In this document: positions 70 through 28,934 of the stretch, in pieces
How positions within the stretch are numbered: position 1 is the first letter of the stretch
Layout of the letters: each line of letters begins with the position of its first letter
Assembly (NCBI RefSeq): GCF_003144195.1
Contig: NW_020290110.1
Span: 1 to 44,866, forward strand
From: Ceraceosorus guamensis
Lineage: Eukaryota; Basidiomycota; Exobasidiomycetes; Ceraceosorales; Ceraceosoraceae
Direction of reading: 5' to 3'
Length of the DNA: 44,866 nucleotides
The notes under the pieces: model-generated
Told to the model about the DNA's origin: nothing
Databases searched by the model: none
The model's input: the letters and a program-made list of their open reading frames with translations, nothing else
Position numbers and translations under genes: made by a program

Positions 70-1382
70 CTTCCCAATTCACAAGGTGACGCATTTTGAG
101 CCGTATCTAGGCCGCCCAGCAGCGCCTGCAGGACTACCTCGACTCTACACAGCCATGCTGATTACTATGGATTGCCAGCTTGCCGTCAAGGCATTCCGAC
201 CAACGATTGAAACCTAGGGGCGATGGCTCGGCGGGTCATCGACGATGCTCTCGTTCTTTCTGATGTCCTGCCACTTTGGCCCGTTGCACACTCAACGCTT
301 TCGCTCTCACACACGACCTCAGATGCAGGATGCTGGTCATCAGCAGACGAAATGTGGGTCCTCACTCGCGCTAAAGTCACCGCATACCCTTGTAACCCTA
401 AATCCGATCCGCATGCGAGCTGCTCATTTCTCGGCGCTTCATGATGTTACCTAAGATTATCTTTTTGCATCCCGCGAGATGCACATCCTTGAACAGCAAT
501 CGCTTGCGGTCTTCCAGAGCGGCAAAGCTTGGTATGGCTCCTGCGGCGTTCGCTCTGCCGTCGACTGCCTAGACATTCACCACCGTCCTGTCTCGGCACT
601 CCTCTGCTCAGGGCAAATTATTCTCACGACTCGCGCGTTTTAGGCCACCTGCCCAATGCATTCGCCTGCGGCCAATTGCAGCAACAGCTTCAGGCCCTCG
701 CGGGTGTCAAGTTGGCGCCTTACCATCAGCTGACGAAGCTGACCGGGACTCGGACCCGCAAGGCGTCGGAGCACTTTTACGGGACTCGAATCCGTAGGTC
801 ATCAGAGCACTCTGCGGGACTCGAACCCGCAGGTCATCAGAGCACTCTGCGTGATCACCAAGATCCGCAAGGCGTCAGAGCCCTCTGCGCGATCACTAAG
901 ACCGGCGAGCATCGCTTGCGCACCCGCAGAGCGCCAGAGCCGTGCAATCTCTGCAGCCTGACTCTCATCGATTGCCTGTCACGCTCTCTCACTTACATGC
1001 CCCCATGGCATGCGCGTGGCGTGCTGCATCTCCACCATTTTATCGCTTAGAAATCTTCAAAATCAAGCTCTGCAGACGTCCAGACGCGCCGTTTTGGCAG
1101 AGCATGCTCTGATATCCTCGACTGACACCATTAGGCTTGCTTGCGAGCGAGGGCTTCTATTTTGACGGCCAAATAAAGCGTCAACAGGTGCAAGCGTGAA
1201 AAGATACACGCGTGCGCGCGCGTTTGCACCCATTCGAAATGATCCACCGCGCTCGGTAGAATGTCTGGTCCGCCCGCGTCTGCCACGCACCAAGCATCGC
1301 AACATCGCGCGGTGGGAGACGTTTGCAAAGTTTCCAAAGCCTAGCTTTGCGGGATAGTCTCCAATCAATCTGGACGCGCTCT
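70..1382. other. Subtelomeric gene-free region
   Basis: I see no convincing gene here. Open frames are short, lack recognisable domains and overlap on both strands. The region holds a lone telomere-like word (TAACCCTAA near 393-401) and the T-arm-like repeat array at 745-888. I saw no RecQ-type helicase, which is common next to telomeres in Ustilago and other fungi. The first real gene ends at 1383. Confidence 0.7.
745..888 (-). repeat. Tandem array of tRNA T-arm / B-box-like hairpins
   Basis: Three head-to-tail units of about 35 bp (745-780, 781-815, 816-850) and at least one degenerate unit (851-888). On the minus strand each of the first three carries a GGTTCGAGTCC-like core, the tRNA T-loop and Pol III B-box consensus: perfect in 816-828, one mismatch in 781-793 and in 745-757. 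Flanking bases form a short stem, CTGCGGG with CCCGCAG in the perfect unit. The neighbouring unit has TACGG with CCGTA, so the stem pair changed on both sides. Units are separated by the palindrome AGAGTGCTCT or a variant. No A-box, anticodon arm or full cloverleaf is visible, so this is not a tRNA gene. It could be tRNA-derived repeat DNA or a row of TFIIIC sites. Confidence 0.6.
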
Positions 1383-2872
1383 TCAGACCGCCGCATGCCC
1401 AATGGATAGTCTCCACGCATCTCCAATGCGCTCGTTGGCCTCATTCAGACCGCCGTGTGCAATGATCTCTAGGCCATTCTTGGTGTCAGTGGCGTCAAAG
1501 GCAAACCAGCCACGTGGCTGAGGAGCGATGCTGCTGTTGGCGACCTTCGGCTCGATGCGCAGCCATGCAAATGTGCTCGGCTCGCTCGATGATCGCAAAA
1601 GAGCGTAGACGTCGTCGAGGAACTGCAGCGTGTGGACTTGTGTCAGCGAGCATCCGTTGCACAGCGATCGCAAACGCCGGCTCACTTTACCTGCTCCATC
1701 GTGCCCCAGCTCTTTTGGCGCACCTTCGCCCTCGCCCATAAACATGATTGCTACAGCTTTCGCCTCGCCAAAGGTGCTGTGCGATATAGACTCTGCGCCC
1801 GAAGGATACGGCACGAGTCCATGTACGGAGCGCTTGTATGGCTGGCCGCTGATGTCCAACAAAGGGACCTCGGATGATGTCCAGGTTGCAGACTTGATGT
1901 CAAAGATGTCCAACGGACCTCCAAGCTCGTATCTGAGAGCACAGATGCGTCAGTGCCCTCGCAGCTCTCGATCTTGCGCCCGCGCTCTTGATCTTGCGCC
2001 CACGCTCACCCGCAAAACCCGCCCCATCTTATGAGCTGCTTCGCACCGGTTGGACCCTCTATTGCCGTTAGAACCGTGCCCCCACGACCAGGCTCCGGCG
2101 CAGAGGGCATAGTCGACCAACTCAAATTGCCCAACTCGATGCTCTCGAGAGAGGCGAGGCGGCCTGAGCACAAGACCGCCGTGATGGGTGAGCAGTAGCC
2201 ACAACTAGCGCGTGAGCAAGCGACTCACCAGAGGCGGGACAACCAGCATGGACGAAGAGCCTGTCGCCTGCGATTGCAGCAGTGTGATAAGAGCGGTCCT
2301 GCGGAAAGTCGCTCGCTGTGCCCCTCTGCGTCTGGAGCTTAGTCCACTTCTCCTGAACGGTATCGAAGCGCCACATGTCGTCCGTATGCTGCTCTCCATC
2401 ATCTCTCCGGGTCTCGATGGGCGACATGTCCTTGCCTCCCCGGCCTCCCCAGAGATACAGCGCTTTGGATGCAGCGTGTGCCACCATGGACGCTCCTACT
2501 CGCGCTATTGGCCATGCTTGGGCTGCAGAAGCGGGCTTGACAACACGAGATGGGTCTTAGGATGCGTGTGTATGCGCGCGCAGGTAGGTGCGTGAGCGAC
2601 GCTCGGCACCTGCTGAAGAGATGTGCGCTAACCCACCTTTGCCATCCAAGTCGACGACGAGCACCTCGTTGCCAATCGGCGTCCTCGGTTTGAGTTCTCC
2701 TCCACTGCAGCACCGACTTGTCAGCACTACGAGGCCGACTGGGTAGCGTGGCCCAGCACGTGACTCACAAGATGTATGCTCTCCTTCCCACGACGGAGAG
2801 GCAGTGACTGGAGCGCGAGATGAGGTTGGCTGGCAAGCCGGTGAGATTGATCGGTGTCCACGTGGCTTGCAT
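1383..2872 (-). CDS. Kelch-repeat protein
   Basis: Predicted beta-propeller protein of 368 aa from six exons: 2769-2872, 2637-2704, 2229-2522, 2010-2163, 1686-1932, 1383-1622. All introns have GT..AG ends and the phases agree. Kelch signatures appear in order: an initial SRSSHCLSVVG blade, AYIFGGE, a LYLWGGRGG blade followed by MWRFD, DRSYHTAA..LFVHAGC, IRWGGFCG with LDIFD, and ELGHDGAGK...DDVYAL near the C-terminus. Double-Gly and Tyr/Trp spacing is typical of galactose-oxidase-like/kelch propellers of about six blades. No catalytic residue set or extra domain is seen, so an adaptor or scaffold role is the safe guess. The start is the first ATG of the open frame, in a WTPINLTG context usual for fungal members. 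It is transcribed away from NAA30 and toward the telomere. Confidence 0.85.
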
Positions 2873-2943
2873 TGTGTCCTACTGGGATGCGGTGGTGGTG
2901 GTGGTGGATATGCAAACCGTGACGAGCGATGGTGAGCCTGATG

Positions 2944-3031
2944 GTCTGAGTGATCGCTTGGAGTTCCGCCCAATGAGTCTGAGTGCTTGCTTGGATTTCC
3001 GCCCATCAGTGATCGCTTGGATTTCCGCCCC
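2944..3031. repeat. Three direct copies of a GCTTGGATTTCCGCCC-containing unit
   Basis: Units of about 32 bp begin near 2944 and 2978, with a shorter third copy from 3009. The shared core is GCTTGG(A)(G/T)TTCCGCCC. The repeats lie 70-160 bp upstream of the kelch gene start, so they could be promoter elements or a young minisatellite. Confidence 0.7.
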
Positions 3032-3366
3032 CCTCCCCCGTCGCCGTGCACCTTGTCGGTTATGAGAACGCGGAAGCTGTTGCCTGATTAACCCACGACT
3101 GCGTGCATGGCGCTCAGGCTGATTAAAATGCCCGCTGCAGCTGTTGCGTCGCACGCGCAACACGCATCCTCCCACGTGACCCGATCCTTCTCGCGGCAGC
3201 GTACACACAACAACACTTTTGACTCAACTCGAGACTCAAGACTCACGACTCGAGATTTCAGGCGACGGACTCCATCACCTGCCTGCCTCCTCTGCCCTCA
3301 TCTGCGCGCATACACGCATATGCGGCAGCAAACTGTGGCTGCTGAGCGCTCCCTGCTCACGCTCTG

Positions 3367-5125: not shown

Positions 5126-7417
5126 ATGCTTCCCGAACCCAGCATGTCGGCCATCGATCGCGTCGCCGAGGCTGCCCGCTCTGCGGCAGATGGCATCGTG
5201 GGACAGTCTGGCGCCAACGGTCAACCCAAGAGTAATGGCCGGGCGACCAATGCCAAGCTCGAGCAGCTCAAGCAATTCATCGACTATCCAAAGGAAGGAG
5301 AAAACATTGCCACCACCGAGCATGGAGTTCCCGTAGCCAACAACACCGCCTGGCTCAAGGGCGGTGCTCGTGGTCCAATGCTGCTCGAAGATCAAGTCGC
5401 CCGAGAAAAGGTTCACCAATTCGATCACGAACGCATCCCTGAGCGTGTCGTGCACGCGCGAGGTGCAGCAGCGCACGGTACTTTCAAGGTCACCAAGCCG
5501 CTAGGGAGAAATGTTACTGCTGCGAATGTCCTAAACGACACCTCCAAAGAGACGCCCGTATTTTTGCGCTTTAGCACGGTTCAAGGTCCGCGGGGCAGTG
5601 CGGACACGGTGCGCGATGTTCGCGGTTTTGCCGTCAAGTTCTACACCGACGAGGGGAATTGGGACATTGTTGGAAACGATGTTCCCGTCTTCTTTGTTGC
5701 CGACAGTCACCGCTTCATCGACCTCATCCACGCCGTCAAGCCAGAGCCCCAGCTCGAGATTCCAACTGGTCAATCCGCCCACCCCAGCTTTTGGGACTGG
5801 ATCAGCTTGTCGCCAGAGTCTGCGCACATGAACATGTGGCAAATGTCGCCGTACGGTATTCCAAGATACTACCACACCATGCGAGGTCACGGGGTCAACA
5901 CGTATCGGCTCGTCGGTGAGGACGGCTCTTCTCGTTATGTCAAGTTCCACTTCTTCCCCGAGGTCGGTTGCCAATCCCTCAACTGGGACGAGGCGCTCAA
6001 GATTCAGGGTCAGAACCCAGACTTTCATCGCACGGTTCTTGCCGAAATGATCGATGCTGGCAAATTTCCTCGCTGGAAGTTTGCAGTTCAAATCATGGAG
6101 GAAGACGATGAAGACACGCACTCTTGGGACCCGCTCGACTCTACCAAGGTGTGGCCCGCTGCAAAGTACCCCTTCATCGAAGTCGGCGAGCTGGAGCTCA
6201 ATGCGAATCCGACAAATTACTTTGCAGAGACGGAGAATGTCGCCTTCTGCACCAGTCACATTGTCCCCGGAATCGACTTTTCTGATGACCCTCTCCTTCA
6301 AGGTCGCAACTTTAGCTACTCTGACACGCAGCTGTCGCGCCTTGGCGGACCAAATTGGCATCAAATCCCAATCAATCGCCCCGTCTGCCCGATGGCCACC
6401 TTCAACAGAGACGGCGCAATGCCAATGAAGATTCCCAAAGGAGCCAATTACTTTCCAAACAGCGAGGGCAACGCTACCAATCTCGCACCGACATTCAACA
6501 AAGCCGACACGCTCACCAACCCTGAAGCGTTGCCTGGACAAATTTGGCACGACAGCGCAAAGCGTCTCGCTTCTGGTGAGAGTCGGCAAGGCTTCTCCTC
6601 GTATCCAGAAGACCTCGCGCGTTTGAATCGCCTGAAAGCGCTCAAGCTGCGCACCAACGGTCCAAAATTCGCCAACTACTTTGAGCAGGCACAAATTTTC
6701 TGGAACAGCGTTCAGGATCACGAGCGAGCTTCGATCAAGGAGGCGGCCATCTTTGAGCTGAGCAAGGTCCCGGATGAAGAGGTCAGAAAGCGCATCGTTC
6801 ACTTGTATAGGCACATCAATCCTGACCTCGCCAAGGCAGTAGCCGACGAGTTCAGGCTAAATGTCCCTACCGACGCAGCTATTCCGATCTCACAAGAAAC
6901 GTATCCAGAGCTCAGCTTGCACTATGAGAACGTTCGCACCATTAGGCAGAAGCGCATCGCAATCATCAAGCTGGACGGCACGCCCGAATCTGAAATCGAG
7001 ACGATCAAGAAGCGCTTCGAGTCGGGCGACGCACTCGTCTTTATCATCGACCACCGCGGATTGGATGCGATGAGGAGCACACTGTTCGACGCCACCTTTT
7101 TGCCACTGACCAACGAGGAGTCCTACAGGGTTGCGCGATCCCACGGTCGCGTCAAGCACTGGATCCGCGAGTCGACTGGCCACCTCAAACCCCTCTTGAT
7201 CAATGGTTCCTACGGTCTAAGCCTCGTCAAGCAAGTCATCACAAACGAGGCCGAGGGCATCAAGGCAGCCGTTGGGGACGACATTGTCAGCTCTTTCGGA
7301 GTGATCACCAGCGCTGCCGAAGCGGCTTCGAGTCAGAAACTGGTAGACGCATTTGTCGAAGCCGTAGCTCACGGTCGCCACTACGCCAGACCCGGCGTTG
7401 CTTCGCTCGCCTTCTGA
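5126..7417 (+). CDS. Large-subunit catalase (clade 2, flavodoxin-like C-terminus)
   Basis: Haem catalase of 763 aa that dismutates hydrogen peroxide to water and oxygen. The length and the extra C-terminal domain (about residues 600-763, RQKRIAIIKLDG onward) mark the large-subunit type, as in bacterial KatE/HPII and fungal CatA/CatB. Active-site signature FDHERIPERVVHARG contains the distal His110. Asn184 lies in IVGNDVPVFF. The proximal haem ligand is Tyr398 in RNFSYSDTQLSRLGG, followed by NWHQIPINRP. No signal peptide or PTS1 (C-terminus ASLAF) is seen, so a cytosolic enzyme is likely. Met7 (5144) is an alternative start. The gene is one uninterrupted exon although nearly every neighbour has introns. 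It converges on EXO84 with about 100 bp between them. Confidence 0.97.
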   Translation: MLPEPSMSAIDRVAEAARSAADGIVGQSGANGQPKSNGRATNAKLEQLKQFIDYPKEGENIATTEHGVPVANNTAWLKGGARGPMLLEDQVAREKVHQFDHERIPERVVHARGAAAHGTFKVTKPLGRNVTAANVLNDTSKETPVFLRFSTVQGPRGSADTVRDVRGFAVKFYTDEGNWDIVGNDVPVFFVADSHRFIDLIHAVKPEPQLEIPTGQSAHPSFWDWISLSPESAHMNMWQMSPYGIPRYYHTMRGHGVNTYRLVGEDGSSRYVKFHFFPEVGCQSLNWDEALKIQGQNPDFHRTVLAEMIDAGKFPRWKFAVQIMEEDDEDTHSWDPLDSTKVWPAAKYPFIEVGELELNANPTNYFAETENVAFCTSHIVPGIDFSDDPLLQGRNFSYSDTQLSRLGGPNWHQIPINRPVCPMATFNRDGAMPMKIPKGANYFPNSEGNATNLAPTFNKADTLTNPEALPGQIWHDSAKRLASGESRQGFSSYPEDLARLNRLKALKLRTNGPKFANYFEQAQIFWNSVQDHERASIKEAAIFELSKVPDEEVRKRIVHLYRHINPDLAKAVADEFRLNVPTDAAIPISQETYPELSLHYENVRTIRQKRIAIIKLDGTPESEIETIKKRFESGDALVFIIDHRGLDAMRSTLFDATFLPLTNEESYRVARSHGRVKHWIRESTGHLKPLLINGSYGLSLVKQVITNEAEGIKAAVGDDIVSSFGVITSAAEAASSQKLVDAFVEAVAHGRHYARPGVASLAF

Positions 7418-22453: not shown

Positions 22454-28344
<5,891 letters not shown>

Positions 28345-28934
28345 CGTCGCAGCTGCACAGCTCAGGGGTGTATGCGCTCATTCTGCTGCGACATGGAATG
28401 TGAGAGCGGCTGCACAGCTGCAGAAGTGGTGGACATGATGAAACATGTGATCAGGAACAGCGTCCCAAGGCGGGTCAAGGTGGAAGGCATACAATCCAGT
28501 GTGAGTGTGAGTAGAGCGGACCTTTGGCCAGAAAGCTTCGGGGTGAGACGTGGGGCGTTCATGCGTCATGCGTGGAGGCGAGGTGTACGGTAATGGTCAC
28601 GTGAGCCACATCGCAGCGCGTCGACGCACAGCCTTGAACTCGTGACGCTTGCCTCGTTATTCAGGAACTCACGACTGCGTGACCGCGATCAGCCATGCAT
28701 CTCGGGTCGGCTGGGATGCCGGCTACCTAACAGGTGCTCACAGTCCACCACGCCTGTTGACTCAGACTCCTCGCCGTTTCACAACTCTCGCAAGCAGCGA
28801 CTTTGCCCTTCATATCGACGAGCTCCTCGGCTGGCCCTGCATCGCGCACAGCCAATGCGGTCACACGGCACTCGCCCGAGCCAAGGTCGCCAATAGGTGC
28901 AGCTGCATCGTCAGCAGATGTCAGCTGGGACTGT
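28345..28934. promoter_or_regulatory. Divergent intergenic region (GCN2 / ITFG1-like)
   Basis: A 590-bp gap between two start codons, expected to hold both promoters. It contains several short frames upstream of GCN2 on the minus strand. Whether any lies in a GCN2 leader and acts as an upstream ORF cannot be told without the transcript start. Confidence 0.45.

Follow-up and report, generated by a model that had tools for sequence, protein, structure and literature searches.

Tandem repeats whose units are palindromic and can form hairpins make up a general class, the hairpin-forming or palindromic minisatellites. For the Pol III B-box, or tRNA T-arm, the consensus is GGTTCGANTCC. S. pombe has known TFIIIC boundaries that contain several B-boxes (PMC4502379; PMC2908685); at IR-L, five B-boxes are used as part of the boundary (PMC4502379). 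Monttinen and Loytynoja reported mutation patterns consistent with DNA template switching, which can create perfect stems together with multi-base compensatory changes (PMC8794818). Here, we compare with these systems a short tandem array near one end of contig C115 of Ceraceosorus guamensis. The window analyzed is that contig at its full length of 44,866 nucleotides, from an assembly of 23.8 Mb in 199 contigs.

The array and its relative at the end of a second contig

The window opens with a terminal CCCTAA telomere tract of 69 bases (positions 1 to 69, no strand assigned), delimited by TRF. About 0.75 kb from this tract, a tandem array of approximately five units occupies positions 738 to 943 on the minus strand, as outlined by TRF and covariance-model matches; its outermost unit is degenerate. 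TRF reported a 35-bp period with 3.1 copies at 744 to 851, which confirms the 35-bp array that a sequence-only reading of this DNA had placed 0.75 kb from the telomere, and an overlapping second row at 800 to 903 with a 38-bp period and 2.8 copies. Where complete, the units measure 35 to 38 bp, within the 10 to 60 bp taken for tandem units of hairpin-forming minisatellites. Cut on the minus strand at the word AGNGCTC, they are 38, 35, and 36 bases long, followed by a last unit that fades out at about position 738. Beyond the three units claimed in the earlier reading, the array contains a unit without a B-box (884 to 847) and the degenerate unit (943 to 907). The surrounding reading frames include a weak Kelch-like frame at 1383 to 1913 (17.8 bits, below the Pfam cut-off) and a clear Pfam match to Kelch at 2122 to 2487, both on the minus strand, and a catalase frame at 5126 to 7417 on the plus strand. 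A 173-amino-acid plus-strand frame crosses the array at 529 to 1050; it was rejected as protein coding, with the 35-bp period breaking the frame and no Pfam match.

When the genome was searched with the array at the DNA level, the sole relative, with three matches and a best E value of 6.5e-9, lay at one end of contig C191, and the reciprocal search agreed; distant copies whose core has changed could escape such searches. Apart from C191, window positions 70 to 3000 gave no match in the genome at an E value of 0.001 or better. The sister array spans approximately 13.05 to 13.39 kb of that 13,392-base contig, its units vary from 24 to 58 bp in length, and no telomere was seen at that end. The two arrays have no flanks in common, which probably reflects movement or exchange of the repeat as a whole array. 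Both have a nearly palindromic core (CAGAG-TG-CTCTG) close to CGCAGAGTGCTCTGRTGNC; next to it comes a hairpin slot in which the inner stem and loop vary. In several of the better units this slot is closed by TGCG/CGCA, and the inner stems read GG/CC and GATC/GATC on C115 and GGA/TCC, TATC/GATA, and GAA/TTC on C191.

Genome-wide, exact copies of the full core pattern occurred five times, on C115 (two) and C191 (three). Allowing up to three mismatches yielded 235 occurrences, compared with 105 for a reversed control, mostly at single scattered places among the 100 of these 235 matches that were listed. The word CGCAGAGNGCTC was found 55 times (control, 31) and stood in tandem only on C115 (3) and C191 (7), with the other 45 occurrences scattered. 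A covariance model was built from eight units, including those at 738 to 775, 776 to 811, 812 to 846, and 847 to 884, and was searched against 26 sequences comprising 113,084 bases. Its extra matches were the degenerate unit at 907 to 943, which was not among the building units (E value of 0.0075), and one further C191 unit (E value of 0.01). It also matched a core without a hairpin on C1 (19.1 bits, E value of 0.0024; locus L063) and, weakly, C191 at positions 1030 to 1067 of locus L005 (E value of 0.064). Above an E value of 0.4, the matches included four tRNA or tRNA-like genes, at their T-arms.

Hairpins in the repeat units

A perfect short hairpin had been claimed for each of three units, and this holds for two of them. 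The unit at 812 to 846 forms a 7-bp hairpin, CTGCGGG/CCCGCAG (832 to 826 with 818 to 812), around the loop TTCGAGT (fold P value of 0.006), and the unit at 776 to 811 forms a 5-bp hairpin, TACGG/CCGTA (796 to 792 with 782 to 778), with a fold P value of 0.24 that is no better than shuffles. The terminal unit (775 to 738), at which the array ends, has only 4 bp, CGGG/CCCG, in its B-box stem. A different hairpin, GCGGATC/GATCACGC with one bulge, is present in the unit without a B-box at 847 to 884 (fold P value of 0.044). The compensatory stem change that had been proposed between the first two units also survives in part: one pair changes on both sides, from G-C to A-T, but the same unit loses two pairs, the outermost turning into C-A and the innermost into A-C.

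The folding of the repeat was evaluated on ten inter-core segments, of which C191 supplied seven and C115 three. Cutting was done solely at the core word, which restricts the test to stretches flanked by that word on either side and so omits the last C115 unit, the degenerate unit, and the ends of the C191 array. Their summed fold was -109.1 kcal/mol, compared with a shuffled mean of -70.1 kcal/mol (standard deviation of 6.6), and none of 500 shuffles was as low, although these figures overstate the independent evidence since the units are related and the segments are not independent. The hairpin tendency is real, given that the sum outdid every shuffle. Individually, five of the ten segments folded better than shuffled sequence (P < 0.05) and the other five did not. 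Twelve slots cut by hand gave 27 pairs versus 13.1 (P = 0.0002 over 5,000 shuffles), but they were chosen with the sequence known, so the test cut at the core word carries the weight. Folded as one strand, positions 730 to 930 gave a z score of -2.0, with 4 of 200 shuffles as low.

Covariation did not rise above its control. In a MAFFT alignment of eight units, two pairs changed on both sides, a result that 99 of 500 shuffles equaled, and in a test on six pairs 263 of 500 shuffles were as high. The earlier claim that the fold is kept gains support: units of both arrays form their hairpin in one slot from differing inner stems, and the summed fold exceeds all shuffles, though single segments do so in only five of ten cases. 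Against the claim stand the covariation tests and template switching, which can likewise produce perfect stems (PMC8794818).

B-box words, tRNA genes, and chromosome ends

Within one mismatch of the B-box consensus, the whole window holds no word on the plus strand and three on the minus strand, all of them in the array. GGTTCGAGTCC occurs there exactly once (827 to 817, minus strand), and the one-mismatch words are GATTCGAGTCC at 792 to 782 and GGTCCGAGTCC at 756 to 746, in agreement with the three exact or one-mismatch B-boxes first described. Per unit on C115, the B-box is exact in one of five, carries one mismatch in two, and is absent from two, the units at 884 to 847 and 943 to 907 having no such word with up to two mismatches. 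The C191 array, searched on both strands, contains neither a B-box within two mismatches nor a T-arm shape. The B-box is not general to the repeat; in the best reading it is confined to one subfamily.

Across the genome, GGTTCGARTCC was found 33 times, compared with 35 for its reversed control, which is the level of chance. For T-arm shapes in which the 5-bp stem is perfect and the loop reads TTCRANY, 0.8 was expected in the window and 2 were seen, one of which is the array unit; with at least four pairs, 7.0 were expected and 6 seen. A single T-arm look-alike is therefore not rare, and the three copies in the array amount to one repeated unit. A second minisatellite, with units of 47 to 49 bp, was observed at C11:173304-173419 (positions 505 to 620 of locus L084). 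It holds three copies of GGTTCGAGTCC, shows no good T-stem by eye, and follows, at a distance of approximately 400 bases, a tRNA-like sequence that contains this word too and that ARAGORN reported as tRNA-???.

No tRNA gene was found with the array's one exact and two mismatched B-boxes: ARAGORN reported none at the array, and no A-box-like word (TRGCNNARNNKG) was found on the minus strand below position 1500, in keeping with the earlier statement that neither an A-box nor a cloverleaf is present. An Rfam search brought nothing at gathering score anywhere in the window, and tRNA, Rfam, and mascRNA readings of the array were rejected. That the array is a Pol III gene or a mascRNA-like, tRNA-like small RNA has a negligible probability. 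It would draw on weak local Rfam matches to tRNA-Sec (15.5 bits, E value of 3.1) and mascRNA (14.4 bits, E value of 5), which fall far below the gathering scores of 47 and 42.5 bits, and on the A-box-like word TAGCGCAGAGKG in four C191 units, which never stands together with a B-box in one unit; neither this pair nor a cloverleaf, as expected of a tRNA gene or a tRNA-derived SINE, was found in any single unit. There is also no terminator telomere-ward: between array and telomere, the minus strand has no T-run of four or more. The tRNA-Gly reported by ARAGORN at 28268 to 28353 was likewise not among the matches of the Rfam search of the window. In the sister array (positions 3121 to 3307 of locus L005), an A-box-like word, TAGCGCAGAGTG or TAGCGCAGAGGG, was noted at four places overlapping the core, perhaps by chance in one repeated unit.

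One tRNA gene resembles the array more closely. Over 17 bases (TGCGGGTTCGAGTCCCG), the unit at 812 to 846 is identical to the T-arm of the tRNA-Arg(UCU) gene at C74:79127-79212, which lies 1.7 kb from the telomeric end of its contig. The terminal unit (738 to 775) matches this gene over 18 bases with one mismatch, and the unit at 776 to 811 has the same 3' end, CCCGT. Among 257 further segments of 160 bases from the window, none reached 17 bases (best 14, then 13), with the array compared on one strand and the control segments on both. The comparison set consisted of 28 sequences: 27 of 30 fetched tRNA loci, the three cut by contig ends being excluded, and the C11 tRNA-like sequence; 63 of the 452 tRNA candidates in the genome were scored. 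ARAGORN placed an intron in 27 of the 30 fetched tRNA genes (L047 to L076), a share that gives the impression of being high.

We regard it as a possible but rather doubtful origin that the T-arm of some tRNA-Arg(UCU) gene, for instance that on C74, was taken up by one unit or was itself the source of the ancestral unit, and that the units diverged later. The three matches just given argue for such a capture. The tRNA-derived satellite once proposed may be correct in view of the 17-base match, but the likeness stops at the T-arm, with no similarity between array and tRNA-Arg(UCU) outside it; and the C191 units retain the hairpin without a T-loop. Furthermore, the C11 tRNA-like sequence shares 15 bases and two tRNAs share 13, which indicates that much of the 17-base match is common B-box, and the symmetry that palindromes and T-arms have in common lowers the information in that match. 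Capture concerns the origin of the repeat and is compatible with its being a minisatellite.

Eleven other telomere-bearing loci, drawn from the 100 telomere matches listed out of 466, were surveyed for approximately 1.5 to 1.9 kb inward of each tract; ends on contigs after C87 were covered by the genome-wide searches only. None of the eleven carries the repeat. One, on C74, has a B-box word, which lies inside a tRNA gene, and the covariance model scored only at L080 (its tRNA, E value of 0.45) and L033 (E value of 1.3). The subtelomeric element that had been proposed is not borne out by this survey of chromosome ends or by the restriction of arrays to C115 and C191 genome-wide, and on this evidence the repeat is not a general subtelomeric element.

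A more striking subtelomeric feature than the hairpin array is CCCTTGTAACCCTAA, located at window positions 387 to 401. It occurs 29 times in the genome, compared with 0 for the reversed control, also in L007, L033, L034, L036, L078, L079, L080, L087, L088, L090, and L092. Each of the 19 plus-strand matches is found no more than 2.3 kb from the start of a contig; among the 10 on the minus strand, the five with a determinable contig end (C68, C70, C74, C80, and C119) lie within approximately 600 bases of it. In the loci read, CCCTTGTAACCCTAA forms the inner border of elements outward of a telomere tract. These are of at least two kinds unlike in sequence, one alike at 94 to 99% over 273 to 415 bases on four contigs and the other at 89 to 94% over 243 to 362 bases on three; window positions 70 to 386 match neither kind beyond 16 border bases. 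They may represent a telomere-attached mobile element, perhaps resembling the Coprina-type Penelope-like elements. Reverse transcriptase domains (PF00078), detected at seven places in the genome, were found within 9 kb of contig starts at C96:4811-5476, C76:8323-8733, and C32:3235-3624 and are possible candidates for a telomere-associated element.

Origin of the hairpins and comparison with known systems

The most economical account of the array is a palindromic minisatellite. We consider it reasonably probable that the array is a small, diverged or degenerate minisatellite of this hairpin-forming kind, probably without a function, in which one subfamily came to carry a B-box and the hairpins either are regenerated through mutation or are under mild selection. 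With each unit built as a core, a slot closed by TGCG/CGCA in the better units, and a variable inner stem and loop, single-strand hairpins formed during replication would probably promote slippage, as the spread of unit lengths on C191 suggests. The same hairpins would probably promote template switching, in which one arm is rewritten from the other and new, well-paired inner stems appear without selection, by the mechanism described in PMC8794818. A tandem palindrome would be a natural substrate for this process, which would agree with inner stems that vary beneath a closing stem of greater constancy. In the C115 subfamily, the loop would have become TTCGAGT between GGG and CCC and would thus read as a T-arm or B-box. 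Against the minisatellite, half of the ten segments do not fold better than shuffles, covariation is no higher than in shuffles, and the tRNA-Arg match exceeds chance.

The hairpin excess could also reflect selection, and the data do not separate selection from mutation. Selection on the hairpins in their own right seems unlikely, whether they acted in RNA, within a minus-strand transcript that continues from the Kelch-like gene, or in DNA, as palindromic binding sites of a dimeric protein. The summed fold excess and the palindromic core would agree with such a role, as would the position of the array, roughly 440 to 645 bases past the end of the Kelch-like frame at 1383 on the same strand; the five segments without an excess, covariation no higher than its control, and the uneven unit lengths on C191 argue against it. 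A subtelomeric TFIIIC-binding boundary, comparable to ETC/COC sites or to the B-boxes of the S. pombe IR elements, is very improbable. It could invoke one exact and two near B-boxes within 82 bases near a telomere, the only words that close to the consensus in the window, and the precedent of IR-L (PMC4502379). Against it, the B-box is not retained in the related copies on C191 and is missing from two of the five C115 units, both variant words are altered within the GGTTC block, the other telomere-bearing loci examined lack the repeat, and the word is at chance level genome-wide. The subtelomeric insulator suggested by the sequence-only reading thus gains no support, and nothing besides the B-box word itself would point to a boundary function. 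A combined scheme, in which a palindromic minisatellite captured a tRNA-Arg T-arm and was amplified near the telomere into a young, local TFIIIC-binding boundary with hairpins under selection, would likewise have a very slim chance of being correct. TFIIIC binding to the array, if it occurred, would make this an instance in which a minisatellite gave rise to a boundary site.

Compared with the known systems, the array resembles a tRNA T-arm in its exact B-box, set in T-arm geometry with a 5-bp stem and a 7-base loop, and in the bases identical to tRNA-Arg(UCU). Unlike in a tRNA gene, no acceptor, D-arm, anticodon arm, A-box, or terminator was found, and the sister units have no T-arm. Like the S. 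pombe IR elements (PMC4502379; PMC2908685), it holds a cluster of several B-box-like words that is not part of a tRNA gene; it differs in that only one word is exact and is not kept in the sister array. Its well-paired stems that differ on both arms recall hairpins made by template switching, which PMC8794818 describes for RNA genes. The array bears on whether both-sided stem changes prove function or can come from template switching. A search of the literature by word, which an unnamed repeat would escape, found no described case of such a variable-stem repeat. The short, GC-rich tandem units with inverted repeats, the uneven copy number, and the location near a chromosome end are those of hairpin-forming minisatellites; the array departs from them in having a largely constant core and closing stem but an inner stem and loop that change from unit to unit. 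It offers, on a modest scale, a case in which the hairpin of a repeat persists longer than the repeat sequence.
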